A DNA stretch of 16,417 bases. Origin: Bacillota bacterium. Its GTDB lineage: Bacteria > Bacillota > Bacilli > Bacillales_B > DSM-18226. Below are positions 1,215-14,363 of the stretch, in pieces (positions within the stretch are counted from its first letter, which is position 1; every line of letters starts with the position of its first letter). The translations under genes were made by a program, and so were the position numbers. Location: positions 1 to 16,417 of the forward strand of contig JAUZQA010000018.1 of assembly GCA_030705665.1 (NCBI GenBank), read 5' to 3'. The notes below the pieces were generated by a model that worked only from the letters and a program-made list of their open reading frames with translations, ran no database searches and was not told the DNA's origin.

Positions 1215-3224
1215 TTGCCAGATCGTTGGTTACATAAGCAAAAGCTGAAGATTCCTTTTGAAGAATTTATTACTTCGATAAAGGAATCGTGGAAAGGATT
1301 TATCAATAACGGGAATAAACCCGAAAAGATTCTTTCAAATGATATCCTCTCCTCATGGGAACGCTGTTTGGAATACGGGGTTGATCCATTTCAGAATTAT
1401 ATTCACAAAAGTTTAAAGGATCAAGAACTGAAAATGGAAAAGGAAAGAAATGAAAAAATGCTTATGTATGCTGAGCCGGTGATGAAACAATTATGCCAAG
1501 TTATTGAAGGGTCAAACTCGGTTTTGGTTATATCCGACAAAAATGGATATGTTCTTGAGTTGCATGGTGATTCCCTCACACAGAAGGAAGCTGCAAGAAT
1601 CAACTTTTATCCTGGAGCAACCTGGAGTGAAGAGGTTGCCGGTACAAACGCCCTCGGGACTGTCATAAAACAAAAAAAGCCAATTCAAATTGTTCATACC
1701 GAACACTTTTGTACGGGATGGCATGATTGGACATGCGTGTCATCACCGATTTTAAATCCGATTACAAACGAGCTGCTTGGTGTAATCGATATATCTGGTA
1801 AGTGGAAGGGATTTCCACATCATACATTTGGAATGGCCATCAGCATGTCAAATATGATTTCGAACGGGATTGAAAGTAAAATACTAAATGATATGACCCA
1901 GCTTAATCCATTTTTACTAACAGCGATCGGTTCTTTGGAAGAGGGACTACTGGCCATCGATACAAATAAAAATATCATCAAATCAAATTCGGTGATTCAA
2001 AGAATTTTTGGAAAAGAAATGATTAGCTTGTCTCAATATCCATATTTTGATGTTCTTATAGATAAAGTACTATACGGAATTGAGAAGTTTATCAAACAAG
2101 AAATTGATATAAATCGAAAGTTATATGTTGTTTCTATTTCCCCTGTAAATTCAGACGGGGAAAGTATTGTTGGCGTGATCGTCCATTTACATGAATCTAA
2201 AATGATCGTACAGCATCAAGAAAAAAAACAGACGACCATGAAAAATACATCACAAAAAAACTACTCTATCCACGATATTGTAGGTTCATCGTCTATATTT
2301 AAAAAAGTATTACAAAAAGCTCAAAAAGCAGCAACTGTTGATTCAACTCTATTGATTACTGGAGAAACGGGAGTTGGTAAGGAGGTATTTGCCCAGGTTG
2401 TTCACAATGAAAGCGAAAGAAAAAATAAACCATTTATTGCTGTAAATTGTGGGGCCATTCCCAGAAATCTAATAGAAAGCGAGCTTTTTGGATACGAGTC
2501 TGGATCGTTTACAGGTGCAAGTCAGAAAGGAAGGAAAGGGAAGTTTGAACTGGCCCAGAGCGGGACAATCTTTCTTGATGAAATTGGTGATATGCCCCTG
2601 GATGTTCAGGTTCACTTACTTCGGGTTTTAGAGGAAAGAAGGATACAAAGGGTAGGCGGGGATCAGTCTATCCCTATCGATGTGCGCATTATTGCTGCAA
2701 CAAACAAAGACCTAATTGAAGCTGTAAAAAATGGAGAATTCCGTGCGGATTTACTCTATCGCTTAAGAGTAATCAAATTAGAGATACCATCACTGAAAGA
2801 AAGAAAAGCAGACATACCATTACTAATACAACATTTTATAACAAAGCTCAGCAATAAATTTGGTAAGATTCAAATTCAATTTGATCCAATGGTGATCGAG
2901 GAGTTACAGGAATATTCCTGGCCTGGTAATATTCGAGAGTTAAAAAATGTGGTGGAACAAATGTTGTTTAATATGGAGGGGAACTTCATTTCATTAAATG
3001 ATATACCTGATGATATCCTTACTAGCAAAATAACAAGTGAAAGGGAAGAATTTATCAAACTGATTCAAAAAATGAATGGAAATATGAGCGAGATCGCCAG
3101 TAAACTTGGTATGTCTCGTGCAACGCTTTATCGGAAACTGAAAAAGTATGGAATTGCAACCGATACACTCAAATCTAAAAGCAAAGAATCCGAAAGTGGA
3201 TCATTTCAAACTGCTTCTTTTTAA
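1215..3224 (+). CDS. Sigma-54-dependent transcriptional activator, AcoR/AcxR type
   Basis: A 669-residue enhancer-binding protein that likely senses a small molecule and opens sigma-54 (SigL) promoters by ATP hydrolysis. Domains in order: an AcoR-type N-terminus with GAF domain (about 75-210), a PAS-like segment (about 230-335), an AAA+ domain (about 352-580) and a Fis-type helix-turn-helix (about 620-648). Visible motifs are Walker A GETGVGKE (383-390), the sigma-54 contact loop GSFTGA (430-435; the consensus is GAFTGA), Walker B with D455-E456, and WPGNIREL near 569. The HTH reads SEIASKLGMSRATLYRKL. The start is TTG at 1215, 7 bases after AGGGGGT. The gene faces the same way as the carboxylase operon, whose sigma-54 promoter begins 170 bases downstream, so it is the obvious activator. 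AcoR (acetoin) and AcxR (acetone carboxylase) share this layout; the context favours a ketone-responsive role. Confidence 0.93.
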   Translation: MPDRWLHKQKLKIPFEEFITSIKESWKGFINNGNKPEKILSNDILSSWERCLEYGVDPFQNYIHKSLKDQELKMEKERNEKMLMYAEPVMKQLCQVIEGSNSVLVISDKNGYVLELHGDSLTQKEAARINFYPGATWSEEVAGTNALGTVIKQKKPIQIVHTEHFCTGWHDWTCVSSPILNPITNELLGVIDISGKWKGFPHHTFGMAISMSNMISNGIESKILNDMTQLNPFLLTAIGSLEEGLLAIDTNKNIIKSNSVIQRIFGKEMISLSQYPYFDVLIDKVLYGIEKFIKQEIDINRKLYVVSISPVNSDGESIVGVIVHLHESKMIVQHQEKKQTTMKNTSQKNYSIHDIVGSSSIFKKVLQKAQKAATVDSTLLITGETGVGKEVFAQVVHNESERKNKPFIAVNCGAIPRNLIESELFGYESGSFTGASQKGRKGKFELAQSGTIFLDEIGDMPLDVQVHLLRVLEERRIQRVGGDQSIPIDVRIIAATNKDLIEAVKNGEFRADLLYRLRVIKLEIPSLKERKADIPLLIQHFITKLSNKFGKIQIQFDPMVIEELQEYSWPGNIRELKNVVEQMLFNMEGNFISLNDIPDDILTSKITSEREEFIKLIQKMNGNMSEIASKLGMSRATLYRKLKKYGIATDTLKSKSKESESGSFQTASF

Positions 3225-3239
3225 AAGAAGCAGTTTTTT
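3208..3239 (+). terminator. Intrinsic terminator overlapping the end of the regulator gene
   Basis: AAACTGCTTC (3208-3217) pairs with GAAGCAGTTT (3227-3236), and the T/A-rich centre may extend the stem. A run of six T follows from 3233. The 5' arm encodes the last residues of the activator and the stop codon lies in the loop, so transcription should end right after the gene and not run into the operon. Confidence 0.8.
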
Positions 3240-3260: not shown

Positions 3261-3334
3261 GGTCTCATATTATGAGCCAAATGCGACAGATGAGACAGAT
3301 GAGACAAATACTGTCTCACTGAAACAGTGAGACA
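3261..3334 (+). promoter_or_regulatory. Upstream activator sites: cluster of GTCTCA/TGAGAC boxes
   Basis: Three adjacent motifs share the core TGAGAC (or GTCTCA inverted). First, GGTCTCATA (3261-3269) faces TATGAGCC (3271-3278). Second, ACAGATGAG occurs twice in tandem (3286-3294, 3295-3303), followed by ACA. Third, TGTCTCACTG (3312-3321) and CAGTGAGACA (3325-3334) form a perfect 10-bp inverted repeat with an AAA spacer. They lie about 60-130 bases upstream of the sigma-54 promoter, the usual place for activator binding. The neighbouring activator with its Fis-type HTH is the likely ligand; this is inference. Confidence 0.75.
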
Positions 3335-3391: not shown

Positions 3392-3408
3392 TTGGCACAC
3401 TAATTGCA
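3392..3408 (+). promoter_or_regulatory. Sigma-54 (-24/-12) promoter of the ketone carboxylase operon
   Basis: TTGGCAC (3392-3398), five bases, then TTGCA (3404-3408) matches the consensus TGGCAC-N5-TTGCW. The invariant GG (3394-3395) and GC (3406-3407) are exactly 10 bases apart. Transcription should begin near 3418-3420, giving a leader of about 50 bases before the first gene. Dependence on SigL plus the upstream activator follows from the family. Confidence 0.92.
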
Positions 3409-3468
3409 CATATATAGGTGTGAGGGGGGAGAAAAAATTAAATCATTTTATCGAAAGGGGAATCGCTA

Positions 3469-5409
3469 ATGAGCGTACTAATGACTATTGACAATGGCGG
3501 GACATTCACAGATGCATGTTTGATTAAAGGAGAGAAAATAGTCCGAGCCAAAACCTTAACAACACCCTATGATTTAACAAAATGCTTTATTGATGTAATT
3601 AATCGGATTTCTGAAGAATTGTATGGTGAGCCAAATATTCGAAAACTCCTCCAAGAAACGGAATATCTCCGATACTCAACAACTGCTGGGACAAATGCAA
3701 TTGTGCAAAAGCGCGGGCCGCGTTTGGGGTTGATCGTTAGGAAGGGTACTGATACTTCTTTCTTAACAGATTCAATGGAAAAGCAGGAAATGTTTAATAG
3801 TATGATTGATGGAAGAATTGTAGAAATTGATCCTGATAAAGATAGGGACCTATTAGAGTCAGAAATAGTAATTGCTGTAAATCAGTTGCTTTCACAAGGG
3901 GTAAACCGCCTTGCCATTAGCTTTAGCGGGGAATCTTTAGTCGGGGATGAGATAAAAGTAAAAAATATCATCCTCCGTAAATATCCACGTCATTTGCTGG
4001 GAGCGATCCCAATGATTTTTTCACATGAGGTGGCAGAAGACAAAAATGATAGCCAAAGAACATGGACTGCATTAATTAACTCATTTCTCCATACAGAGAT
4101 GGAGAGGTTCCTCTATAATTCTGAAAACTTCCTGCGAAGTCATCGGATGAAAAATCCGCTGCTCATTTTTCATAATGATGGAAACTCTGCAAGAGTCGCA
4201 AAGACAACGGCGATAAAAACATATGGTTCGGGACCACGCGGCGGAATGGAAGGGACAAAAGCTATTGCAGCCCAATACAATATTCCAGCTTTATTAACAT
4301 TAGATATAGGTGGGACCACTTCAGATATTGGTCTTGTAAAAGAAGAAAAAATAAAAGTAGACCGCTATGGACATATTGAGGGGATTCCAACCTCGTTCTC
4401 CTTAAGTGATTTAATCAGTATTGGTGCCGGCGGAAGTTCTGTTTTTTCCGTAAAAAACAACAATCTTCAAGTTGGGCCGGAAAGCGTTGGGGCTGTCCCA
4501 GGCCCAGCCTGTTTTGGAAGGGGTGGAAAAGAAGCAACAGTAACAGATGCCTATTTTCTCATGGGTGTACTTGATTCACGATCCTATTTCCGCGGCAGCA
4601 TGACTTTGGATGAGGAACGAGCTAAAACAGCCATTATCGAAAATGTTGCCAGACCACTTGGAATTTCACTTGAAAGCTCTTTATTGGAGATGGAAAAACA
4701 ATATTGTCAAAAAATTGCCGATGGACTGTCCACCTATCAGGAGCAGGTTGATGATGAAACATTACTTGCTTTTGGGGGTGCCGGACCAATGAGCGCCTGT
4801 GGTGTTGCAGAAGCAGCGGGAATAAATAAAATTATTATTCCTCGCCTAGCAGCTGTTTTCAGTGCATTTGGAATCGGCTTCAGTGATATTGCCCATGAAT
4901 ATCAAACATATCTATCTTCAGTGTCTGAACAAATTATGAATGAAAAATTGAAAGAACTTGAGGAAAAAGCCGAAAGGGATATGTTTGCCGAAGGATTTAC
5001 TATTTCTGAATGCCGTACTACTGCTTTTATCAGTTATTTTACAGATGGTGAGGAAAAAATTGCATCACTTTCGGAGATCAATCTGGTGAAAAACAAAATA
5101 TCCGAAGAAGATGACATTCGTTTACATTTAAAGGTCGAAAAACCAATCATTCATTTTAAATTTGAGGAAAATCAATCCGCAGGACAAACGGAATTAACTC
5201 CGATCCGTACTCAAAGAATTTTAAATGAAAATGAAGAGTGGGAAGACGTTCCGGTTTATTCTTTTGAAGCGATTTCCTCAGGAACTAAAGGGGAGGGCCC
5301 CGCCTTAATTGAGGATGAATATTTTACTTGCCGAATTTTAAAAGGCTGGGAATATGAAGTGAATTCCTTTAAAGATATCTTTCTTTATAGAAAAGGGGGA
5401 GAAAAATAG
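3469..5409 (+). CDS. apc1: HyuA-like subunit of an acetophenone/acetone-carboxylase-type enzyme (Apc1-like)
   Basis: A 646-residue member of the hydantoinase A/oxoprolinase family, with an ASKHA-type ATP-binding fold. The first phosphate motif is DNGGTFTD (8-15), where most relatives have DIGGTFTD. The second is LDIGGTTSDIG with Asp279, and the conserved late loop is GGAGP (436-440). In ketone carboxylases such subunits use ATP to phosphorylate bicarbonate or the ketone enolate. AAAGGGGA (3454-3461) is 7 bases before the ATG. It is the first gene after the sigma-54 promoter, and its stop touches the start of the next gene. Its size fits the roughly 70-kDa Apc1 of Aromatoleum. Family membership is clear; the exact substrate and which ATP step it performs are inferred from the whole operon. 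Confidence 0.87.
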   Translation: MSVLMTIDNGGTFTDACLIKGEKIVRAKTLTTPYDLTKCFIDVINRISEELYGEPNIRKLLQETEYLRYSTTAGTNAIVQKRGPRLGLIVRKGTDTSFLTDSMEKQEMFNSMIDGRIVEIDPDKDRDLLESEIVIAVNQLLSQGVNRLAISFSGESLVGDEIKVKNIILRKYPRHLLGAIPMIFSHEVAEDKNDSQRTWTALINSFLHTEMERFLYNSENFLRSHRMKNPLLIFHNDGNSARVAKTTAIKTYGSGPRGGMEGTKAIAAQYNIPALLTLDIGGTTSDIGLVKEEKIKVDRYGHIEGIPTSFSLSDLISIGAGGSSVFSVKNNNLQVGPESVGAVPGPACFGRGGKEATVTDAYFLMGVLDSRSYFRGSMTLDEERAKTAIIENVARPLGISLESSLLEMEKQYCQKIADGLSTYQEQVDDETLLAFGGAGPMSACGVAEAAGINKIIIPRLAAVFSAFGIGFSDIAHEYQTYLSSVSEQIMNEKLKELEEKAERDMFAEGFTISECRTTAFISYFTDGEEKIASLSEINLVKNKISEEDDIRLHLKVEKPIIHFKFEENQSAGQTELTPIRTQRILNENEEWEDVPVYSFEAISSGTKGEGPALIEDEYFTCRILKGWEYEVNSFKDIFLYRKGGEK

Positions 5410-5763
5410 ATGAGAGAAAACATGACAGAATATCTGGCCATTGATCTTGAAACAGAAAACTGGGTATGCCGAAAATGTGACCATTCTATCGCACCTGCTC
5501 GCGTTAATTATAAAGAAGGTTTATTGGTGAACGTCCGCGATCCGCGCGAAATCCACAAGCCGATTCTAAATCCGGATTTATATGAGTATACGTATGCTCC
5601 AGATCCAAAGTGGCTGCAAATCCTTGAGTATTATTGCCCAAGCTGTGCAACTCAGATAGAGGTTGAATATTTGCCGCCCGGGCATCCGCCGGTAAGAGAT
5701 ATGGATTTTGATATTGATGCATTAAAACGACGCAGAAAGAATGGAAAGGAGCAAAGAGCATGA
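5410..5763 (+). CDS. apc2: Small zinc-binding carboxylase subunit (Apc2 / acetone carboxylase gamma-like)
   Basis: A 117-residue protein with two CxxC pairs, Cys20/Cys23 and Cys76/Cys79, enough for one structural zinc site. The rest is polar, with a proline-rich stretch (LPPGHPPVRD) near residues 88-97 and a basic C-terminus. It resembles the small gamma subunit found between the large subunits in acetone and acetophenone carboxylases (about 15 kDa in Apc). The start codon follows the apc1 stop directly. GGGGGAG at 5395-5401, inside the end of apc1, serves as ribosome binding site. The stop overlaps the next start as ATGA, so translation is coupled and equal stoichiometry is likely. A role in assembly or in shaping the active-site channel is inference. 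Confidence 0.83.
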   Translation: MRENMTEYLAIDLETENWVCRKCDHSIAPARVNYKEGLLVNVRDPREIHKPILNPDLYEYTYAPDPKWLQILEYYCPSCATQIEVEYLPPGHPPVRDMDFDIDALKRRRKNGKEQRA

Positions 5764-7934
5764 AACAGGTGAGTGTAGATATCGGTGGAACGTTTACAGA
5801 TTGTTTTTTGGTTTGGGATGACACGCTAATTGAGACGAAAGCGCTTACAACCCACCACAATCTAGCCTTAGGGTTTATGGATGCGCTTGAACAAGCTTGT
5901 GCAGAACTCGGAAAAACGATTCGTGAAGTGTTATCACAACTTGATTCAGTACGCTATGCTACTACGCTCGGAACAAATGCCTTATTAGAAAGAAAAGGGC
6001 CAAAGATTGGCCTCATCACAACGGCAGGTTATGAAAGTCAGGTTCCATTAAGCCGTGGTCGTGGATATGGGGATGGTTTAATTCCGGAGGAGCAAGCCGA
6101 CCTTCCGGCAGGTCATCGTCCGGAGCCGCTTGTTACACCGCCTATGATTGAAGGGGTGCGGGAACGTATTGATTATGACGGGAAAATTATTATGAAACTT
6201 GACGAGGAACATTTACGCAAACAAATCCGAAAGCTTGTAGACCGAGGCGCGCAGGCCTTTGTAGTTGGTTTGATGAATTCAGTTGTAAATCCTGTGCATG
6301 AAAGAAAAGTAGAAGAAATTATTTTGAAGGAATACCCTACACACATGCTTGGCTCCATGCCAGTCATTCTTTCCCATCAGGTAGCTGAAAGGAAAGGAGA
6401 ATACGTAAGGATTACATCTGCAATATTAGACGCATATTTACATGACCAAATGTATCATGCATTGAGTTCGCTTGAAATGACACTTAAAGAATATGGCTAT
6501 CAAAAACCAATGCTAGTTGTGCATAATATTGGCGGAATGGCGCAGCTCAACTCAACCCATGCTCTGCAAACGATTCACTCAGGACCGACTTCCGGTATTA
6601 ATGCCTCTGAACATTTGTCTGAGGAATTTGAAGTTGGACATTTAGTTGCCATGGATATGGGAGGAACCAGCTGCGATATTGGAATCATTGTTGGCGGTGG
6701 TATCCGTTTCTATGACTTTAATCCGGTCATTGACCGCTGGCTTGTCAGCGTACCAATGCTCCACCTTGGTGTAATTGGAGCAGGCGGGGGCTCGATTGCT
6801 CGCTATGATCAAACTTTAAATCATATTGAGGTTGGACCTGCAAGTGCCGGATCCGAACCTGGTCCAGCATGCTTTGACCGAGGCGGACTTGACCCAACCG
6901 TAACAGATGCCGATTTGATCTTGGGATATTTAGATCCTGGCTATTACGCTGAAGGACATATTGCTTTAAATAAAAAACGTTCAGAGTTTGCCATTGAAGA
7001 AGCAATTTGTGAGGAAATGGATTTAACTGTGATCGATGCAGCCAAGCAAATTAAAAAGAAGGTTGACTCAAACATGGCGCATGCCATTTTTAAAGAACTG
7101 GGAGTTAAGGGCTATGATCCGAAAAACTTCACTTTGCTTGCCTATGGTGGAAATGGGCCGCTCCATTGTTGCGGAATAGCAAGAGTACTGGAAATTGATA
7201 AAATTCTTGTCCCGCCATTTGCTCCGATTTTCTCTGCAGTTGGAGCAGGCATCATGAATCAAGTAAACATTCACGAACGCTCTGTTTTTATGAATATTTA
7301 TGATTCAAACACAAGAAGTTTATTTAAAGATTTTGATCGTTTTAACGCGATTGTCCAAGAGCTTGAAAAGGAAGGTAAAGAAGAATTGATGCGGCAGGGT
7401 ATTCCTGAGGACCAGATCCAATTCCGTCTTGAGCTTGATATGCGCTATGGAAATCAGTTAACTCAGACTTCGGTTATTTCTCCGGTTAATCGTTTGACCA
7501 ACATGTCAGAGGTTATGAAGCTCGTAAACGCATTTAGTGATAACTATGGAGAGCGTTTTGGAGAAGGCAGCCAGCAGCCGGAGGCAGGGATCCGCATTAA
7601 TACGGTCCGTGTTCTTTCCTTCGTTGAACTGGAACAAGTTAAGTTTACAAAGGGATCAGAAGTGTTTATTGAGGCCCCAGAGCCAATAAGTGTACGAAAC
7701 TGCTATTTTGTTGATTTTGAAAATCCATTAAAGACAGCTGTCTACCGTTCAGAACAATTACAATCAGGGGTTGAAATTGTTGGACCTGCTATTGTTGAAT
7801 CACCAAGAACTAGCTATTTAATTGAACCTGGATGGAGGCTGGTAATGGGAGAACAGCGTTCAGCATGGATTTTAAATACAGCGAAAACGGCAAGCAAGCA
7901 AAAAACAAATGTACAAGCAAAAGCAAAAGCTTAA
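5760..7934 (+). CDS. apc3: Second HyuA-like carboxylase subunit (Apc3-like)
   Basis: A 724-residue hydantoinase A/oxoprolinase-family protein, a diverged paralogue of the 646-residue subunit. It has canonical DIGGTFTD (7-14), a second phosphate motif MDMGGTSCDIG with Asp299, and GGNGP (463-467) where the paralogue has GGAGP. Two different HyuA-like chains in one operon are the mark of the acetophenone-type enzyme; acetone carboxylase has only one. The likely role is the second ATP-dependent activation. The ATG overlaps the apc2 stop (ATGA), with AAAGGAG at 5746-5752. The last 20 or so residues form a Lys/Ala/Gln-rich tail that looks disordered and is read from a short A-rich repetitive stretch. 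Division of labour between the two HyuA chains is inferred, not visible. Confidence 0.87.
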   Translation: MKQVSVDIGGTFTDCFLVWDDTLIETKALTTHHNLALGFMDALEQACAELGKTIREVLSQLDSVRYATTLGTNALLERKGPKIGLITTAGYESQVPLSRGRGYGDGLIPEEQADLPAGHRPEPLVTPPMIEGVRERIDYDGKIIMKLDEEHLRKQIRKLVDRGAQAFVVGLMNSVVNPVHERKVEEIILKEYPTHMLGSMPVILSHQVAERKGEYVRITSAILDAYLHDQMYHALSSLEMTLKEYGYQKPMLVVHNIGGMAQLNSTHALQTIHSGPTSGINASEHLSEEFEVGHLVAMDMGGTSCDIGIIVGGGIRFYDFNPVIDRWLVSVPMLHLGVIGAGGGSIARYDQTLNHIEVGPASAGSEPGPACFDRGGLDPTVTDADLILGYLDPGYYAEGHIALNKKRSEFAIEEAICEEMDLTVIDAAKQIKKKVDSNMAHAIFKELGVKGYDPKNFTLLAYGGNGPLHCCGIARVLEIDKILVPPFAPIFSAVGAGIMNQVNIHERSVFMNIYDSNTRSLFKDFDRFNAIVQELEKEGKEELMRQGIPEDQIQFRLELDMRYGNQLTQTSVISPVNRLTNMSEVMKLVNAFSDNYGERFGEGSQQPEAGIRINTVRVLSFVELEQVKFTKGSEVFIEAPEPISVRNCYFVDFENPLKTAVYRSEQLQSGVEIVGPAIVESPRTSYLIEPGWRLVMGEQRSAWILNTAKTASKQKTNVQAKAKA

Positions 7935-7951
7935 AAAAAGGAGTGATCAGG

Positions 7952-10192
7952 ATGTCTGTAGATGAGTTAAAGCGTGAACAGGAGCTTATCGAGAAGTTTT
8001 TAAAGGAAACGACATTGTTTCTGGGCCCAGATCCTAAAAATATGACGAACCACACCCTGGAAAAGATCACAGCAAGAGAAATAGAAGCGATTAATAAAGT
8101 AAACGATCCATCGATCCTTAGTGTTGCGCGGAGTAAATTATTAGCAGGTACCAATGAAGCGTTTGAAATGCTCGAGCAAATAGGGGCAGCACCGGGAGCC
8201 AAATGGGGAGACCTGGTGTGCGGGATTTTTACTGCCAGCGGTGACCTTTCCATTGTAAGTTCTGGTGGTGTCCTGATCTTTGCTGGATGTACACAATATG
8301 GCGTAAAGCATATTGTTCAAAACTGGTTACACGATCCGGAGGTAGGAGTTAACCCGGGTGATATTTTCTATTACAATGATGCCCGCTATGGTGGGGTTCA
8401 TAATACCGATCAAAACTTGATTCTTCCAGTGTTTGAAAAGGGAGAATTGATAGCTTGGATCGTAGCAGTTGTTCACGAGGGTGAAAACGGTTCAATCGAA
8501 CCTGGTGGTATGCCTTCTGCAGCTGAATCTGTTTATGACCAGGGATTAATGATTTCTCCAATGAAGATAGGTGAAAATAATAAATTGCAAAAAGATTTAT
8601 ATACGTATTTCCAAAATTCTGTCCGTGAACCAAAGCTGATGATCACAGATATAAAGGCTAAACTCCATGCAGCAAATCGCGTTCATAAACGGATACAGGA
8701 AACGATTGATGAATATGGTGTTGATGCAGTTATCGCTGTGTTACGAAAAACACTTGATGATACTGTTGATGAAGTAAAAAGACGTCTAAGTCAGTGGCCC
8801 GATGGAACGGTAAGTGCAATGGGAATTGCTGATGGAACACTAAGAGAAAATATCTTAATCAAAACCAGCCTGAAAATGACAAAAAAAGGTGATGAGCTAA
8901 CCCTTGATTTTAGAGGATCTGGACCGGCATTTGCCAACCGTCCAAACAATTCTGTTATGGGTGCCATGAAAGGTATGCTTGCCCAGATGTTTCTATCCTT
9001 CGTCTGGCCAGACTTACCGCGTAATCAGGCTGTACTGGCACCGATGAAGTTTGTTGTCGATGATCATTCTATTTATAACGCCGCATTTGATGTCCCGAAC
9101 GCGCAAAGTATGATGACATTCTTCCCTGCGTTTACCGTCGGACAAATGTGTGTAGCAAAATTCTTGTATAACAGTCCGGAAAAAGCAACTAATGTAGTTG
9201 CCCCTTGGTACAACATGATTCAGACCTGTATTTATGGGGGTGTTACCCAGCACGGTGAAACCGTTGGAAACCTTGCAGCGGACTTAAATGGGATGCCTGG
9301 CGGAGCAAGGGATGGAATTGATGGAGAACATTCGATCGCCCCGATTTTTGCTGCAATGGCTGAACAAGGTGAACAGGAGTTAATCGAAGAAGAAGTACCG
9401 CTCATGCAATTGTCGAGAAGAATCATGATGGATAATCAAGGATTCGGGAAGTATCGAGGCGGTCAGGGTTATCAAATGTTTTTAACTGTAAAAGATACTC
9501 CATTCTTTGGCTTTATGACAACTACCATTGGCTCTAAATATCCTACTACCTATGGATTGTTTGGCGGTTACGCTTGCCCAAGCTATCCGTTAAGTAAGGT
9601 GAAAGGAATTAATATATTTGAGATTATGGAAAAAACTCCGGAAAAAATGGTTTACACCGTTGAAGAAGTGATGAATAATCGTCCGTTTGAAAATGGAACC
9701 TATACGACACATCATACAGGTCTTCAATATGAGAAAGTCGAAGAAGGCGAACTTTATATGATTACTCAAGGTGCAGGCGGAGGGTATGGTGACGTACTTG
9801 ATCGGGATCCTGAGCTGGTACTAAAGGATGTTGAGGAAGAGTTAATCTCTCAAGAAACAGCAAATCATATTTACAAAGTATTCTATAATCCTGAAACATT
9901 AGCCCTGGATATTGAAAAAACAGAGGCAGCAAGAAGAAAAGAAAGGGAAGAACGTTTAAAACGCGGTATTCCATACCAGGAATTTTTACAAAAATGGGTG
10001 ACAGCAGAGCCGGCAGAGCACTTACCTTTCTATGGACGCTGGAAAGATGAAAACATTATATATGCAGGGTCGAAAGCGAACAAAATGGCGGCGGACAATA
10101 TGCATCCTGTTTTCATGCCAGATCCAAGGGAAGTACGCATCCAGCAGCTTGAAGAGGAACTAAGGCAACTAAAGAAAAAAAATCAAATTTAA
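7952..10192 (+). CDS. apc4: HyuB-like catalytic subunit of ketone carboxylase (Apc4-like)
   Basis: A 746-residue hydantoinase B/oxoprolinase-family protein. The ATG at 7952 follows AGGAG (7939-7943) by 8 bases and lies 17 bases after the apc3 stop; the open frame reaches back to 7832 but has no ribosome binding site there. The segment YYNDARYGGVHNTDQN holds His150 and Asp153, and AVVHEGENG holds His175. From memory, these residues and this spacing are the Mn ligands of the acetone carboxylase alpha subunit, so a metal-bound active site for C-C bond formation is likely. Other family features are QGAGGGYGD near residue 607 and NRPNNSVMGAMKG near 330. The last 25 residues (REVRIQQLEEELRQLKKK) are predicted by eye to form a coiled coil, which may dock another subunit. 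Confidence 0.9.
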   Translation: MSVDELKREQELIEKFLKETTLFLGPDPKNMTNHTLEKITAREIEAINKVNDPSILSVARSKLLAGTNEAFEMLEQIGAAPGAKWGDLVCGIFTASGDLSIVSSGGVLIFAGCTQYGVKHIVQNWLHDPEVGVNPGDIFYYNDARYGGVHNTDQNLILPVFEKGELIAWIVAVVHEGENGSIEPGGMPSAAESVYDQGLMISPMKIGENNKLQKDLYTYFQNSVREPKLMITDIKAKLHAANRVHKRIQETIDEYGVDAVIAVLRKTLDDTVDEVKRRLSQWPDGTVSAMGIADGTLRENILIKTSLKMTKKGDELTLDFRGSGPAFANRPNNSVMGAMKGMLAQMFLSFVWPDLPRNQAVLAPMKFVVDDHSIYNAAFDVPNAQSMMTFFPAFTVGQMCVAKFLYNSPEKATNVVAPWYNMIQTCIYGGVTQHGETVGNLAADLNGMPGGARDGIDGEHSIAPIFAAMAEQGEQELIEEEVPLMQLSRRIMMDNQGFGKYRGGQGYQMFLTVKDTPFFGFMTTTIGSKYPTTYGLFGGYACPSYPLSKVKGINIFEIMEKTPEKMVYTVEEVMNNRPFENGTYTTHHTGLQYEKVEEGELYMITQGAGGGYGDVLDRDPELVLKDVEEELISQETANHIYKVFYNPETLALDIEKTEAARRKEREERLKRGIPYQEFLQKWVTAEPAEHLPFYGRWKDENIIYAGSKANKMAADNMHPVFMPDPREVRIQQLEEELRQLKKKNQI

Positions 10193-10207
10193 TATTACAC
10201 GGTTTGG

Positions 10208-10239
10208 GAAGAGTCAGCTTTTTTTTAGGCTGACTCTTC
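10208..10239 (+). other. Intra-operon hairpin between apc4 and the fifth gene
   Basis: GAAGAGTCAGC (10208-10218) pairs perfectly with GCTGACTCTTC (10229-10239). The loop is ten bases, eight of them T. No T-run follows the stem, so it is not a standard terminator. It could slow decay of the upstream mRNA or set lower expression of the fifth subunit. This is a direct structural observation; the function is inferred. Confidence 0.7.
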
Positions 10240-10270
10240 TGGATTCATTAATTTAAAGGGAGGGAATACT

Positions 10271-11152
10271 ATGAATATTGGATCCTATGAGTCTGTTTTT
10301 TCGCAAATCAAAGAAAAAAGAATCACTTTTCTGGATTTTATTGACTATGCTAACCATTTATTAAACAAAGAAAATAACGATCTGTTTTTAAAACCGGAAG
10401 TTTTTATATCTGTCTTCACACAAGCAGAAAGATTGCTTCAACCAGATCTTCTAAACATTCATGTAAATCCGTTTTATCAAACATACTTGGATAAAGAAAA
10501 TGACCTGCTTCAATCGTTGAAAAACAAACGAATACACATTGCTTTTAAAAATATTCTCGCCCAGCAGCAACCAAAAAATGTTTTGTCAGAGATTGTGAAT
10601 GCATTAAAATCGTTATCCAACAAGCCGATCGTTCTGACGATAGATTCCCCGCAAAAATGGCTGCTCCAGGTCCAAGAGACTGTCAGCGAGAGTAAACTAT
10701 CAAATTTTTCATTAGATGATTTTGAGCGTGCTTCCATGTATATGGCAGAGCTTCTAAGAGCGTTTTCAACACTTGGTATCTCTGCCATTGTCCTTTCGGA
10801 AACAAACGAGATACCATTTTCTTTGGAAGAGTTGCTAAACAGCTATCAGCCGATCATAAATGTTGCCAACCATTATAAATGGCGGCTTGGTATTCATTTG
10901 GAATCAACGAGCATTGACATCGCCATCGTGAATGATAAAGTTGATTTTTATTTGAACCAATCATTGGGGATTGAAGAATTATCACCTTTCTGGGAAAAAG
11001 GCCTTTCAGTTGGGGGCGGCTTAAATCGAGAATTTTGGAAAGGTAATATACAGCAAAAAATAGAGCCTAATAGAGGCCTGCTATATGGAAAAATACCTCC
11101 TGATGCAGAACCAGAAACAGTATTAGCGCAGCTAAAAGCGTTGCAATCATAA
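10271..11152 (+). CDS. Orphan 293-aa protein, candidate fifth (epsilon) carboxylase subunit (Apc5-like)
   Basis: I do not recognise a family motif in this protein. It is soluble, with no signal peptide or membrane segment, and mixes acidic helices with short hydrophobic beta-like stretches (KPIVLTIDS near 116, ISAIVLSE near 169, WRLGIHLES near 201), ending with a Gly-rich SVGGGLNREFW segment near 246. This alternation could fit an alpha/beta fold. The assignment rests on position and size: it follows the fourth carboxylase gene and is about 33 kDa, as is the separable 34-kDa Apc5 that the Aromatoleum enzyme needs for activity. AGGGAGGG at 10257-10264 precedes the ATG by 6 bases. It lies 78 bases after apc4, across a hairpin. 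Confidence 0.68.
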   Translation: MNIGSYESVFSQIKEKRITFLDFIDYANHLLNKENNDLFLKPEVFISVFTQAERLLQPDLLNIHVNPFYQTYLDKENDLLQSLKNKRIHIAFKNILAQQQPKNVLSEIVNALKSLSNKPIVLTIDSPQKWLLQVQETVSESKLSNFSLDDFERASMYMAELLRAFSTLGISAIVLSETNEIPFSLEELLNSYQPIINVANHYKWRLGIHLESTSIDIAIVNDKVDFYLNQSLGIEELSPFWEKGLSVGGGLNREFWKGNIQQKIEPNRGLLYGKIPPDAEPETVLAQLKALQS

Positions 11153-11256
11153 CAAGAACTTTTATTATTTTTGGTTTGGGTGCGAAAGCATCGTTGCTGT
11201 GATTGTTCCGATTTAATACGGCCTCGACAGCATACCATGAAAAAAAGGAGTCTACC

Positions 11257-12831
11257 ATGGATATAATCGGAAAAAGAAGTCTGAGAGATTTATTGAATGA
11301 GAAAGTTAGGCTGTTCCCTGATAAAACCTTTCTTTTCTTTGAAGATGCTGCTCAAAGAAGGTTCGAACTATCGTATGGTGAATTTGCTGATCAAGTTTAT
11401 CGATTAAGTCAGGTATTTGTAGATTTTGGGGTAAAAAAAGGTGATCATATTGCAATGCATCTTCCAAATTGTATTGAATTTTTAACCTCATGGTTTGCTA
11501 TTGCCAGTATAGGTGCCATTATGGTTCCAACCAATCCTTTATCCACTGCCGATGAGATGGAATATGTTTTAAACCATTCCGAATCAATGATCTTAATTAC
11601 TGAAGAAGAATATTTGGATAAGTTCGCAAGTATTAAACACAGCTTACATCATCTTCAAGAAACCCTCTTAGTTCGATACAGTGGAGGTGAATATGCTGAC
11701 CGCGATCTTAGTAAATTGATGGCTAAGGCAATGCCTGTAGCACCAACAGTTCCTTTAAGTTCGGATGATGTGGCAGGAATGATTTATACTTCTGGGACCA
11801 CCTCCAAACCTAAAGGTGTTGAAATTACTCATGCTAATTACATCTATGTTGGTGAACTAATGTCAAAATCGGTTCGCCTATCCCCGGAGGACCGTCAATT
11901 TATTGTTCTTCCTTTGTTTCACGGGAATGCACAATATTATTCTACCATGTCTGCTTTAGTTGTCGGTGCCAGCATAGCCATGACAGAGAAGTTTAGCGCT
12001 TCCCGATATTTTAAACAAGCAAAACAGCTAGGTGCAACGGTTGGCTCATTATTTGCTGCACCAATTCGCATGATTCTTGCACAAAATTATGATTCGTTAG
12101 ATAGAGACCATTCACTAAGAATGATCTGGTTTGCTCAATCTGTTACACCTGAACAATTAACAGCTTTTGAGGAAAAATACCAAACTACTTTATTACAAAT
12201 GTATGGGATGACGGAAACGATCGGAATACCATTGATGAATCCTATTGATGGGATTCGGAAAAACATGAGTATTGGTAAACCGACAATTGGCTACGAAGTA
12301 AAATTGGTGGATGAGGCAGGAGAAGAAGTTCCAGTTGGCATGTCAGGTCAAATTATTGTAAAAGGGATTCCCGGTCGAACTTTAATGAAAGGGTATTTTA
12401 AGAATCCGATAGCAACCGCAGAAACACTAAGGGATGGCTGGCTATACACCGGGGATAATGCCCAGCTCGAGGAGGATGGTTATTTTTATTTTGTAGATCG
12501 TATCAAAGACATGATTAAGCGTGCCGGGGAAAATGTGGCGGCAAATGAGGTTGAAAGTGTTCTTTGCCAGCATCAGGCCGTATATGAAGCTGCTGTCATT
12601 GGTATTCCTGATGATATACGTGATGAAGCAATTAAGGCATATGTGATTTTACGAGAAAATTATCGTTTGACAGAAGAAGAGCTCCTCTCACATAGCCGTG
12701 AAAGACTGGCTAAATTTAAAGTACCGGATTCTATTGAATTTATCTCTGAGTTTCCCAGAACATCTGTCGGAAAAATTCAAAAGCATATATTGCGGAGAAA
12801 GCATGAACAAGAATTTAAAACTCATACTTAA
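11257..12831 (+). CDS. AMP-forming acyl-CoA ligase (beta-ketoacid--CoA ligase candidate)
   Basis: A 524-residue member of the ANL adenylate-forming family. Motifs are the P-loop TSGTTSKPKG (178-187), QMYGMTETIG near 323, the hinge and A8 region (YTGDNAQLEEDGYFYFVDR, then RAGENVAANEVE) and the catalytic C-terminal lysine Lys506 in TSVGKIQKH. It should convert the carboxylation product, a beta-keto acid, to its CoA ester with ATP giving AMP and PPi; in Aromatoleum a benzoylacetate-CoA ligase follows apc. The ATG at 11257 is 6 bases after AAGGAG (11245-11250); the frame extends to 11203, but that start has no ribosome binding site. A gap of 104 bases to the preceding gene shows no promoter or terminator that I can identify. 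Family certain, substrate inferred. Confidence 0.9.
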   Translation: MDIIGKRSLRDLLNEKVRLFPDKTFLFFEDAAQRRFELSYGEFADQVYRLSQVFVDFGVKKGDHIAMHLPNCIEFLTSWFAIASIGAIMVPTNPLSTADEMEYVLNHSESMILITEEEYLDKFASIKHSLHHLQETLLVRYSGGEYADRDLSKLMAKAMPVAPTVPLSSDDVAGMIYTSGTTSKPKGVEITHANYIYVGELMSKSVRLSPEDRQFIVLPLFHGNAQYYSTMSALVVGASIAMTEKFSASRYFKQAKQLGATVGSLFAAPIRMILAQNYDSLDRDHSLRMIWFAQSVTPEQLTAFEEKYQTTLLQMYGMTETIGIPLMNPIDGIRKNMSIGKPTIGYEVKLVDEAGEEVPVGMSGQIIVKGIPGRTLMKGYFKNPIATAETLRDGWLYTGDNAQLEEDGYFYFVDRIKDMIKRAGENVAANEVESVLCQHQAVYEAAVIGIPDDIRDEAIKAYVILRENYRLTEEELLSHSRERLAKFKVPDSIEFISEFPRTSVGKIQKHILRRKHEQEFKTHT

Positions 12832-12867
12832 ATAAAAATTGATTTGCTATTTGGAGGGGGAATATGA

Positions 12868-14031
12868 ATGGCACTGGCTTCTGTAATTGGAATAGGCAGT
12901 ACACGCTATGGTGCATTAGAATCAAGCTTCACCGAATTGGTAATTGAGGCTGCAAGCAAGGCCTTAACAGACGCCGGACTGGGTCCTGACGATATTGATG
13001 CTTTTTATTTAGGTAATTTTGCGGGAGATCAGTTTTTTCATCAAAATCACTTGGCGTCATATGCTGCTTCAGCGATTGGCCTTAATGGGGTTCCGGCAAC
13101 ACGGGTGGAGGGTGCCTGTGCATCAGGGAGTCTTGCCATCAGACAAGCCATTTTTGCGATCCAAAGCGGGTTTTATAAGCGGGTTCTTGTTGTTGGAGCT
13201 GAAAAAATGACATCTTTGCCAACCGCCGGTGTAACCAGCGTTCTGGCACAAGCAAGTAACCAAGAATTGGAGGTTAATGCAGGATTAACGTTTCCAGGAG
13301 TATTTGCTTTAATCACGAACAGGCATATGCATCGTTATGGAACGACCAGGGAGCAGCTGGCTGCAGTGGCAGTAAAAAACCATGAACATGGTTTTTTAAA
13401 TCCTCTGGCCCATATGAGGAAAAAGATAACAATGGAAGACGTGTGTTCCTCCACCATTATGGTGGCAGAACCGCTGAATCGTTATGATTGTTCTCTCGTT
13501 TCCGATGGGGCTTCGGCAATGGTGCTATGTGCTCCAGAACTGGCTTCGAATCACAGGAAAGATGTCATTGATATTACTGGATCAGGCCAGGCTTCAGGGC
13601 AATTTGAAATCTTTTTAAATGAGGATATGACTTCGTTCAAGTCTGCCAGACTAGCAGCATCCAAAGCATATCAGATGGCCGGCATTACCCCAAAAGATAT
13701 ACATTTAGCCGAGGTGCATGACTGCTTTACAATGGCTGAAATAGTTGCAACTGAAGATTTAGGGTTTTTTGAACCAGGGCAAGGTGGCATAGCAGCACTT
13801 GAAGGGTGGACGAAAATTGGCGGAAGGCTTCCGGTCAATCCAAGTGGCGGTTTGAAATCAAAGGGACATCCCATTGGATCGACAGGTGTTGGACAAGGAA
13901 TAGAAACAGTCCTTCAACTCCGAGGGGATGCTGGTAAACGGCAAGTGGAAGGGGCAAAGATCGGATTGACCCACAATATTGGCGGATCAGGTGGTACATG
14001 TTGTGTCCAAATTTATCAAAGGAGGGGCTAA
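12868..14031 (+). CDS. SCP2-type thiolase (beta-ketoacyl-CoA thiolase candidate)
   Basis: A 387-residue thiolase of the SCP-x/SCP2-like subfamily. The nucleophile is Cys84 in GACASG. His284 lies in EVHDCF, His334 in the GHPIG loop, and the second cysteine Cys378 in GGSGGTCCV, all in the expected order. It should cleave the beta-ketoacyl-CoA with free CoA to give an acyl-CoA (benzoyl-CoA if the ketone is acetophenone) and acetyl-CoA. GGAGGGGG at 12853-12860 lies 7 bases before ATG 12868; an ATG at 12864 is in another frame. Only 2 bases separate its stop from the zinc-ribbon partner gene. Such pairs resemble BbsB/BbsA (benzoylsuccinyl-CoA thiolase), which suggests a bulky substrate over acetoacetyl-CoA. 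Substrate is inferred. Confidence 0.9.
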   Translation: MALASVIGIGSTRYGALESSFTELVIEAASKALTDAGLGPDDIDAFYLGNFAGDQFFHQNHLASYAASAIGLNGVPATRVEGACASGSLAIRQAIFAIQSGFYKRVLVVGAEKMTSLPTAGVTSVLAQASNQELEVNAGLTFPGVFALITNRHMHRYGTTREQLAAVAVKNHEHGFLNPLAHMRKKITMEDVCSSTIMVAEPLNRYDCSLVSDGASAMVLCAPELASNHRKDVIDITGSGQASGQFEIFLNEDMTSFKSARLAASKAYQMAGITPKDIHLAEVHDCFTMAEIVATEDLGFFEPGQGGIAALEGWTKIGGRLPVNPSGGLKSKGHPIGSTGVGQGIETVLQLRGDAGKRQVEGAKIGLTHNIGGSGGTCCVQIYQRRG

Positions 14032-14033
14032 GG

Positions 14034-14363
14034 ATGATGCAGAAGTTAAACGCCTATCAATGTAAATCATGCGGGACTCGTACCATTATCTCATATGGAT
14101 ATTGTCCGAAGTGCCGGGAAAAAGATATCTTTCAAAAAGTTACTGTGGATTCTAAAGGCACTATTTTTTCTTACACAAAAATTTTCGTTGCAGAAGAAAG
14201 ATTTCAAGGAAAGACGCCTTATGTCCTGGCCGTTATAGAAAGTGAGGAGGGGGTAAGGTTACTTGCCAGAATTAAACATGAGGATATGGACAAGGTATCC
14301 ATTGGGGTGGCTGTCGAACTTGAGGGTTGGAATGATAATGTACCGATATTTAAGGTTTCTTAA
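14034..14363 (+). CDS. DUF35 zinc-ribbon/OB-fold thiolase partner protein
   Basis: A 109-residue protein with an N-terminal zinc ribbon (Cys10, Cys13, Cys24, Cys27) and a following OB-fold region typical of DUF35/ChsH2-like proteins (GTIFSYTKIFVA near 45, PYVLAVIE near 63). Partners of this kind form complexes with SCP2-type thiolases and help build the acyl-CoA site. AAAGGAGGGG at 14018-14027 begins before the thiolase stop and favours the ATG at 14034; a second ATG follows at once. The frame extends to 13998 inside the thiolase, but without a ribosome binding site. It is the last gene of the operon; a hairpin lies 45 bases downstream. Confidence 0.88.
   Translation: MMQKLNAYQCKSCGTRTIISYGYCPKCREKDIFQKVTVDSKGTIFSYTKIFVAEERFQGKTPYVLAVIESEEGVRLLARIKHEDMDKVSIGVAVELEGWNDNVPIFKVS

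Follow-up and report, generated by a model that had tools for sequence, protein, structure and literature searches.

A probable five-subunit ketone carboxylase operon with a sigma-54-type regulator and a downstream coenzyme A module in a Bacillaceae-like genome

Gene content and order

Positions 1–16,417 of contig JAUZQA010000018.1 of a Bacillota bacterium (assembly GCA_030705665.1; the whole stretch is referred to here as the window) carry an operon that, judging from its sequence, most likely encodes an ATP-dependent ketone carboxylase of five subunits together with a dedicated path to acyl-coenzyme A (acyl-CoA) and acetyl-CoA. The operon contains eight genes in open frames on the forward (+) strand, encoding, in order, alpha′, gamma, alpha, and beta subunits, a 293-aa orphan protein, an acyl-CoA ligase, an SCP2-type thiolase, and a DUF35 protein; the gaps between them are 0, −4, 17, 78, 104, 36, and 2 nt, which confirms the tight one-strand order described in the initial annotation. 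The matching Pfam families are, in the same order, Hydantoinase_A, Acetone_carb_G, Hydantoinase_A, Hydantoinase_B, none (293-aa protein), AMP-binding, Thiolase, and OB_ChsH2_C (DUF35). The alpha subunit is 91% identical to that of Bacillus marasmi, in agreement with the Bacillaceae-like host suggested initially. The locus presents the following features:

1215..3224, + strand: sigma-54-dependent activator (GAF, AAA+, Fis-type HTH) with a TTG start; Pfam PF00158 (238 bits), GAF, and HTH_8
3208..3236, + strand: terminator-like hairpin 3′ of the regulator gene; 13-pair stem and T run
3291..3334, no strand: TGAGACA repeats including the TGTCTCACTG/CAGTGAGACA palindrome; probable enhancer (upstream activating sequence)
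3393..3408, + strand: sigma-54 (−24/−12) promoter TGGCACACTAATTGCA; exact consensus
3469..5409, + strand: alpha′ subunit (ApcA-like); best PDB match 5L9W_b, E 4e-88
5410..5763, + strand: gamma subunit (ApcB-like), 117 aa, four Cys; PF08882, 131 bits
5760..7934, + strand: alpha subunit (ApcC-like); best match 5L9W_B, RERIDYDG at residue 134
7952..10192, + strand: beta subunit (ApcD-like), 746 aa; best match 5L9W_A
10207..10240, + strand: 14-bp hairpin between the beta and epsilon genes; z −5.75
10271..11152, + strand: putative epsilon subunit (ApcE-like, the 293-aa orphan), barrel of the uroporphyrinogen-decarboxylase (UROD) fold; predicted fold and position
about 11257..12831, + strand: AMP-forming acyl-CoA ligase, predicted to activate a beta-keto acid; PF00501/PF13193
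12868..14031, + strand: SCP2-type thiolase with Cys and His motifs (GACASG, EVHDCF, GHPIGSTG); PRK06064, 472 over a cut-off of 420
14034..14363, + strand: DUF35/OB-fold zinc-ribbon protein, thiolase partner; PF01796, 49 bits, four Cys

The beta reading frame is open from 7832; its start was taken as the ATG at 7952, where there is a good ribosome site.

Carboxylase subunits and their relatives

All four core subunits presented their best solved-structure match in acetophenone carboxylase (Apc; 5L9W), above acetone carboxylase (Acx) and hydantoinase. The alpha subunit scored 541 bits with 5L9W_B, 310 with Acx, and 285 with 5-oxoprolinase (Hyd); alpha′ scored 299 bits with 5L9W, 238 with the other 5L9W ATPase subunit, and 171 with 5-oxoprolinase; beta scored 296 bits with 5L9W_A and 154 with acetone carboxylase; and gamma scored 123 bits (E 6e-35) with 5L9W_C and 42 (E 1e-9) with acetone carboxylase. 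Apc enzymes are distinguished, in the accessible part of PMC5214803, by the gene order apcABCD(E), an alpha′ subunit, a short four-Cys gamma, RERID in alpha and not in alpha′, a beta about 50 aa shorter than that of Acx, and an alpha in its own Apc branch. The window presents this gene order, a second ATPase (alpha′) that has ATP motifs and lacks RERID, RERIDsxG in alpha only, and a short gamma with Cys at 20, 23, 76, and 79. The beta length lies between those of 5L9W (684 aa) and 5M45 (776 aa), and alpha and gamma lengths fit Apc. The beta residues aligned with Apc Asp65, His123, Asp126, and His148 are Asp, His, Asp, and His, a putative metal site.

The sequence and tree comparison with Apc and Acx proposed initially was run as a tree of 45 rows. 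The window alpha is separate from Acx and Hyd and belongs to a 17-row clade with 100/100 support, which includes Bacilli, Neorhizobium, Rhodococcus, Cupriavidus, the haloarchaeon Halorientalis, and other proteins. The alpha′ clade (100/100) joins 5L9W alpha′ at 99/95; the latter is a partial row of 516 aa with a long branch. Neither subunit groups with hydantoinases or 5-oxoprolinases. As placed by this tree, the window would represent a distinct branch resembling acetophenone carboxylase, and a route that simply equals that of Aromatoleum is not supported. The locus does not fit Acx, as alpha′ and epsilon are present and alpha lies outside the Acx clade.

The parallel with Aromatoleum aromaticum ApcABCDE and Bal (core 5L9W, epsilon 9FOU) drawn in the initial annotation stands in part: the five subunits, their order, the operon ligase gene, the ATP and Cys motifs, and the epsilon fold are shared, but the window alpha is 38% identical and in another clade, its pocket is changed, its beta is longer, the ApcA–D model cut-offs are not reached, and the ligase is below the benzoate-CoA ligase family cut-off (242 vs. 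375). The window operon further includes genes for a thiolase and a DUF35 protein, and the sigma-54 activator gene stands in place of the predicted two-component system to which the Aromatoleum apc-bal operon is tied (PMC4729919, accessible part). AcxABC (5M45, 5SVB) shares alpha, beta, and gamma homologues but is without alpha′ or epsilon, has a longer gamma (168 aa in the PDB), and is less similar to the window. The ATP-dependent hydantoinases, 5-oxoprolinases, and caprolactamases share alpha- and beta-type domains but consist of two subunits, or one fused, without gamma, alpha′, or epsilon (PMC5214803, accessible part), and presented lower scores.

The 293-aa orphan had no Pfam, NCBIfam, or PDB sequence match and, used alone as query, found no relatives in the genome contigs. 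Its predicted fold (pLDDT 88.6) lies within the UROD fold, and the top Foldseek match is the solved ApcE structure 9FOU; its place in the operon is also that of ApcE. By position and predicted fold, the orphan thus fits the fifth subunit, ApcE. Conserved residues include Asp59, Arg163, and Asn197-x3-His201-Tyr202. Since 9FOU is already in the PDB (released 2025-12-24), the resemblance of the ApcE fold to UROD may have been published already.

Distribution was assessed across 19 loci (the window, L001, L003–L013, L024, L026, and L044–L047), leaving out L002/L025 (one genome with core and epsilon on separate contigs), duplicates, and L048, which continues L026. An epsilon homologue was found in 15 of these; those of L008–L011 were confirmed by an A1 profile built without them (E 3e-33 or better), that of L012 is weak (E 3.5e-4; hhalign 96%), and that of L007, also counted, is interrupted by stops. 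Three loci carry a URO-D protein in place of the homologue, located in L013 between alpha′ and gamma; neither was seen in L024. Kinship between epsilon and the URO-D proteins of L046, L047, and L013 appears weak by sequence (hhalign 50% with L046; A1 profile E about 1.2 for L046 and L047 and no match for L013). Within the Bacillus marasmi family, the A1 profile matched 3 of 193 genomes, one of them from B. marasmi itself, and the A4 profile matched 2 of 398 Bacillota genomes, namely the centre genome (G003) and one with a marginal match (E 7.8e-4) containing an internal stop. For alpha′ (A2), 6 of 299 Bacilli genomes had a match with E up to 1e-100, the centre genome being one of the six. The accessible part of PMC5214803 reports only two close orthologues of the Aromatoleum epsilon subunit; 114 proteins, none with a Pfam domain listed, are now candidate UROD-fold epsilon subunits.

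Control elements and the downstream module

The sigma-54 promoter noted initially ahead of the operon is borne out by TGGCACACTAATTGCA, which is located 76 nt upstream of the first start codon (ATG) and is the sole exact consensus match within the window. On a weighted scale (maximum 24), a score of at least 22 was reached at one of 32802 window positions, that of TGGCACACTAATTGCA itself, and the best upstream site scored 22–24 in all six related loci compared (L001, L003–L007). With up to two mismatches, 14 matches were found in the window vs. 8 expected, so weaker matches mean little; a sigma-70 scan of the window was uninformative (33 found, 33.5 expected). Because the regulator gene closes with the terminator-like hairpin at 3208–3236, the operon proper begins at 3393. 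Among the 25 matches listed for the regulator, no NCBIfam equivalog reaches its cut-off; syntenic homologues are present in L001 (71%) and L003–L006 (36–52%). The TGAGACA repeats, with a 10-bp palindrome, lie ~60–100 nt upstream of the −24 element, a place where the activator would bind and which suggests an enhancer. TGAGAC elements on either strand also precede apcA in L001, L003, L004, and L006; none were found upstream in L005 or L007, or before the dehydrogenase gene of L006. The hairpin between the beta and epsilon genes has a counterpart in Bacillus marasmi (L001 9919–10000, z −2.90), but neither L003 nor L005 has one; it might determine how much core is made relative to epsilon.

Acx operons of related genomes (L018–L023) adjoin a sigma-54 regulator gene in five of six cases (36–39% to that of the window) and occur in five genomes that also have a five-subunit operon; one such Acx operon with a sigma-54 regulator is described for Paracoccus in the accessible part of PMC6987047.

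Nucleotide similarity to L001 of Bacillus marasmi extends without a break from the regulator gene (1250) into the epsilon gene (10882) at 76%; beyond 10882, alignment is limited to two short pieces, one of 49 nt in the epsilon gene and one of 62 nt in the ligase gene. Regulator-apcABCDE is thus the conserved unit, and the CoA module behind it is exchanged among relatives. The unit's branch is found in several Bacilli, among them Bacillus marasmi and Aneurinibacillus terranovensis. CoA-activating and thiolase genes were tallied by tblastn with ten queries. A CoA-activating gene adjoins the core in 16 of the 19 loci, together with a thiolase gene in 11; the pair is missing from L001, L004, L008–L011, L013, and L026. 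CoA-activating genes that lie upstream of the core or on the opposite strand (L001, L008, and L012), the split thiolase of L007, and the thiolase of L024 that runs off the stretch were counted; a thiolase about 6 kb upstream in L010 and a thiolase with DUF35 about 9–10 kb from the core in L048 were not. The window ligase has PRK08008 as its best NCBIfam match (512 bits; cut-off of 651 not reached). Ligases adjoining the core elsewhere are 29–42% identical to it, including that of L001 on the other strand (42%), and L004 carries a further ligase fragment upstream (50%). The L003 thiolase is BktB-like, unlike the SCP2 thiolase with DUF35 of the window.

Several side observations concern individual loci. 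In Rhodococcus jostii RHA1 pRHL2 (L009 17859–18440), a CoA-transferase A match (38%) directly 3′ of epsilon is absent from the plasmid gene table. A Brevibacillus metagenome-assembled genome (MAG; G005, L024 1–9010) carries a second Apc-type operon, in which alpha′, gamma, alpha, and beta are followed by a ligase and by a match to the first part of a thiolase, and no epsilon gene was seen. Haloarchaeal plasmids (L012 and L013) also carry Apc-type operons, one with AMP ligases, a thiolase, and an OB-fold protein like the window. In Neobacillus sp. PS3-12, epsilon and thiolase frames (L007 10001–10929 and 12625–13880) are interrupted, and this operon is perhaps a decaying copy. A flavin monooxygenase gene (Pfam FMO-like; L026 16494–18001, G126) is divergent to an apcABCDE operon, and its product presumably resembles Baeyer–Villiger enzymes. 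In the window, G+C is 41% over the operon (3469–14363) and 35–36% in the flanks, which is compatible with acquisition; no tRNA and no Rfam match at the gathering threshold were found there.

Mechanism, substrate, and alternative readings

We consider it likely that the locus is a catabolic ketone operon in which a five-subunit ATP-dependent carboxylase, a ligase, and a thiolase/DUF35 pair act on a small alkyl ketone rather than on acetophenone; the 5L9W matches, the motifs, and the epsilon fold support the carboxylase with ligase and thiolase/DUF35 recognised initially. The genes and their order, the families and motifs assigned to them, the promoter sequence, and the predicted epsilon fold form the observed basis, to which homology would add the reaction and subunit roles. 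The neighbouring activator would switch the operon on, presumably sensing the ketone or its alcohol. By homology, alpha would transfer phosphate to the enol form of the ketone, alpha′ would convert bicarbonate to carboxyphosphate, beta and gamma would hold the core, and the epsilon barrel would dock for a short time, allowing the two activated pieces to combine into a beta-keto acid. The Apc scheme in the accessible part of PMC5214803 likewise has the enol phosphate on alpha, carboxyphosphate on alpha′, and epsilon joining late. The ligase would then form the CoA ester, which the thiolase/DUF35 pair would cleave to acyl-CoA and acetyl-CoA; the self-sufficiency of the cluster proposed initially is plausible.

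The same source lists Leu81, Phe281, Asn282, Pro285, Ile333, Gln344, and Thr345 as the Apc ketone pocket; the window alpha has Thr, Ile, His, Pro, Ile, His, and Leu at these positions. The string TIHSGPIHL (these positions plus 283–284) is exact in 12 of 26 non-PDB rows, and in 12 of the 19 five-subunit-operon rows (window, L001, L003–L010, L044, and L045), with one change in L011, two in L026, and three each in L012, L046, and L047; L013 and L024 are partly like 5L9W. Genes for 3-oxoacid CoA-transferase (L003 and L008) and acetoacetate-CoA ligase (L005 and L011), all over NCBIfam cut-offs, accompany the identical pocket in L003, L005, and L008 and the singly changed one in L011. Because the pocket differs from that of Apc and the same or nearly the same pocket occurs beside acetoacetate-type CoA genes, a small alkyl (methyl) ketone appears likelier than acetophenone, as judged from relatives. 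In L006, the apc operon is additionally preceded by a gene for a zinc alcohol dehydrogenase that has a separate sigma-54 site.

A number of observations weigh against the proposed operon function or narrow it. Cut-offs of the NCBIfam ApcA–D models were missed (348/1250, 143/250, 588/1500, and 337/1500, score/cut-off), and beta exceeds the 684 aa of 5L9W. The free tree places 5L9W alpha with L013, Acx, and Hyd rows (98/97), outside the window clade; monophyly of the 20 five-subunit-type alphas was not rejected (p-AU 0.283) in a tree with long branches, two of which meet. In sequence comparisons, neither profile A3 nor profile A4 reaches 9FOU, leaving fold and position as the link. In L010, L013, and L026, tblastn shows no CoA-activating gene adjoining the core. 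The window ligase is not an acetoacetate-CoA ligase, and neither it nor the SCP2 thiolase points to a particular acyl part. Finally, five of seven related genomes (G002, G003, G004, G006, and G007) have a separate three-subunit acetone carboxylase; acetone itself may therefore not be the substrate, for which butanone or a larger methyl ketone is an equally likely candidate.

These separate acetone carboxylases also favour a tentative alternative, possible but on the less probable side, in which a general core acts on a larger, branched, or oxygenated lineage-specific ketone and the swapped ligase and thiolase suit the acyl part. The end of L001 similarity at 10882, the 29–42% identity of core-adjoining ligases in other loci to that of the window, and the contrast between the SCP2/DUF35 and BktB-like thiolases point the same way; however, the pocket is the same as in the acetoacetate-linked relatives, and L001 also has a core-adjoining ligase gene and L004 a ligase fragment.

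A bolder proposal, which we regard as doubtful, combines a widespread second branch of five-subunit alkyl-ketone carboxylases in Bacillota, Pseudomonadota, Actinomycetota, and haloarchaea with an epsilon barrel that is catalytic and not a mere clamp. The barrel with the conserved Asp, Arg, and Asn-x3-His-Tyr residues would host the meeting of CO2 or carboxyphosphate with the enol phosphate, so that a decarboxylase fold would work backwards.

A true aromatic-ketone (acetophenone-like) carboxylase resembling that of Aromatoleum, in which the thiolase would release an aroyl-CoA, is also unlikely. Subunits, gene order, and a ligase gene 3′ of epsilon as in apcABCDE-bal, the best matches of all core subunits to 5L9W, and a match to a BbsB-type thiolase model, far under its cut-off (186 vs. 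750), would agree with it, but Leu81, Phe281, Asn282, Gln344, and Thr345 are all replaced, relatives sharing the pocket string carry acetoacetate-type genes, and the ligase falls short of the benzoate-CoA ligase family. A hydantoinase, oxoprolinase, or lactamase complex with extra genes, suggested by the HyuA/HyuB-type domains, was rejected as very improbable on structure scores (6YRA and 7HK5 well under 5L9W) and tree placement, and has the four-Cys gamma, alpha′, epsilon, and the downstream CoA activation and thiolysis genes against it.

The initial annotation was aware of no characterised Firmicute example, and our search of literature outside subscription papers agrees, giving no characterised Bacillota ketone carboxylase, no ApcE structure paper, and annotation-only mentions in Bacillota, i.e., a “gamma subunit of acetophenone carboxylase” in clostridial MAGs (PMC7229112) and Listeria lmo0458 “apc1” (PMC13082608), both from the accessible parts of these papers; those of PMC3039467 and PMC6987047 report no Bacillus ketone carboxylase. 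As of 2017, one Apc enzyme alone had been characterised (PMC5214803, accessible part). The five-subunit kind of ketone carboxylase is thus already known, and the window represents a variant of it, a branch with another pocket, another regulator, and a downstream module that appears swappable. Named Bacilli strains with this distinct branch, Bacillus marasmi and Aneurinibacillus terranovensis, would provide new experimental systems, and the evidence from pocket and neighbouring genes predicts that the five-subunit design is not confined to aromatic ketones.

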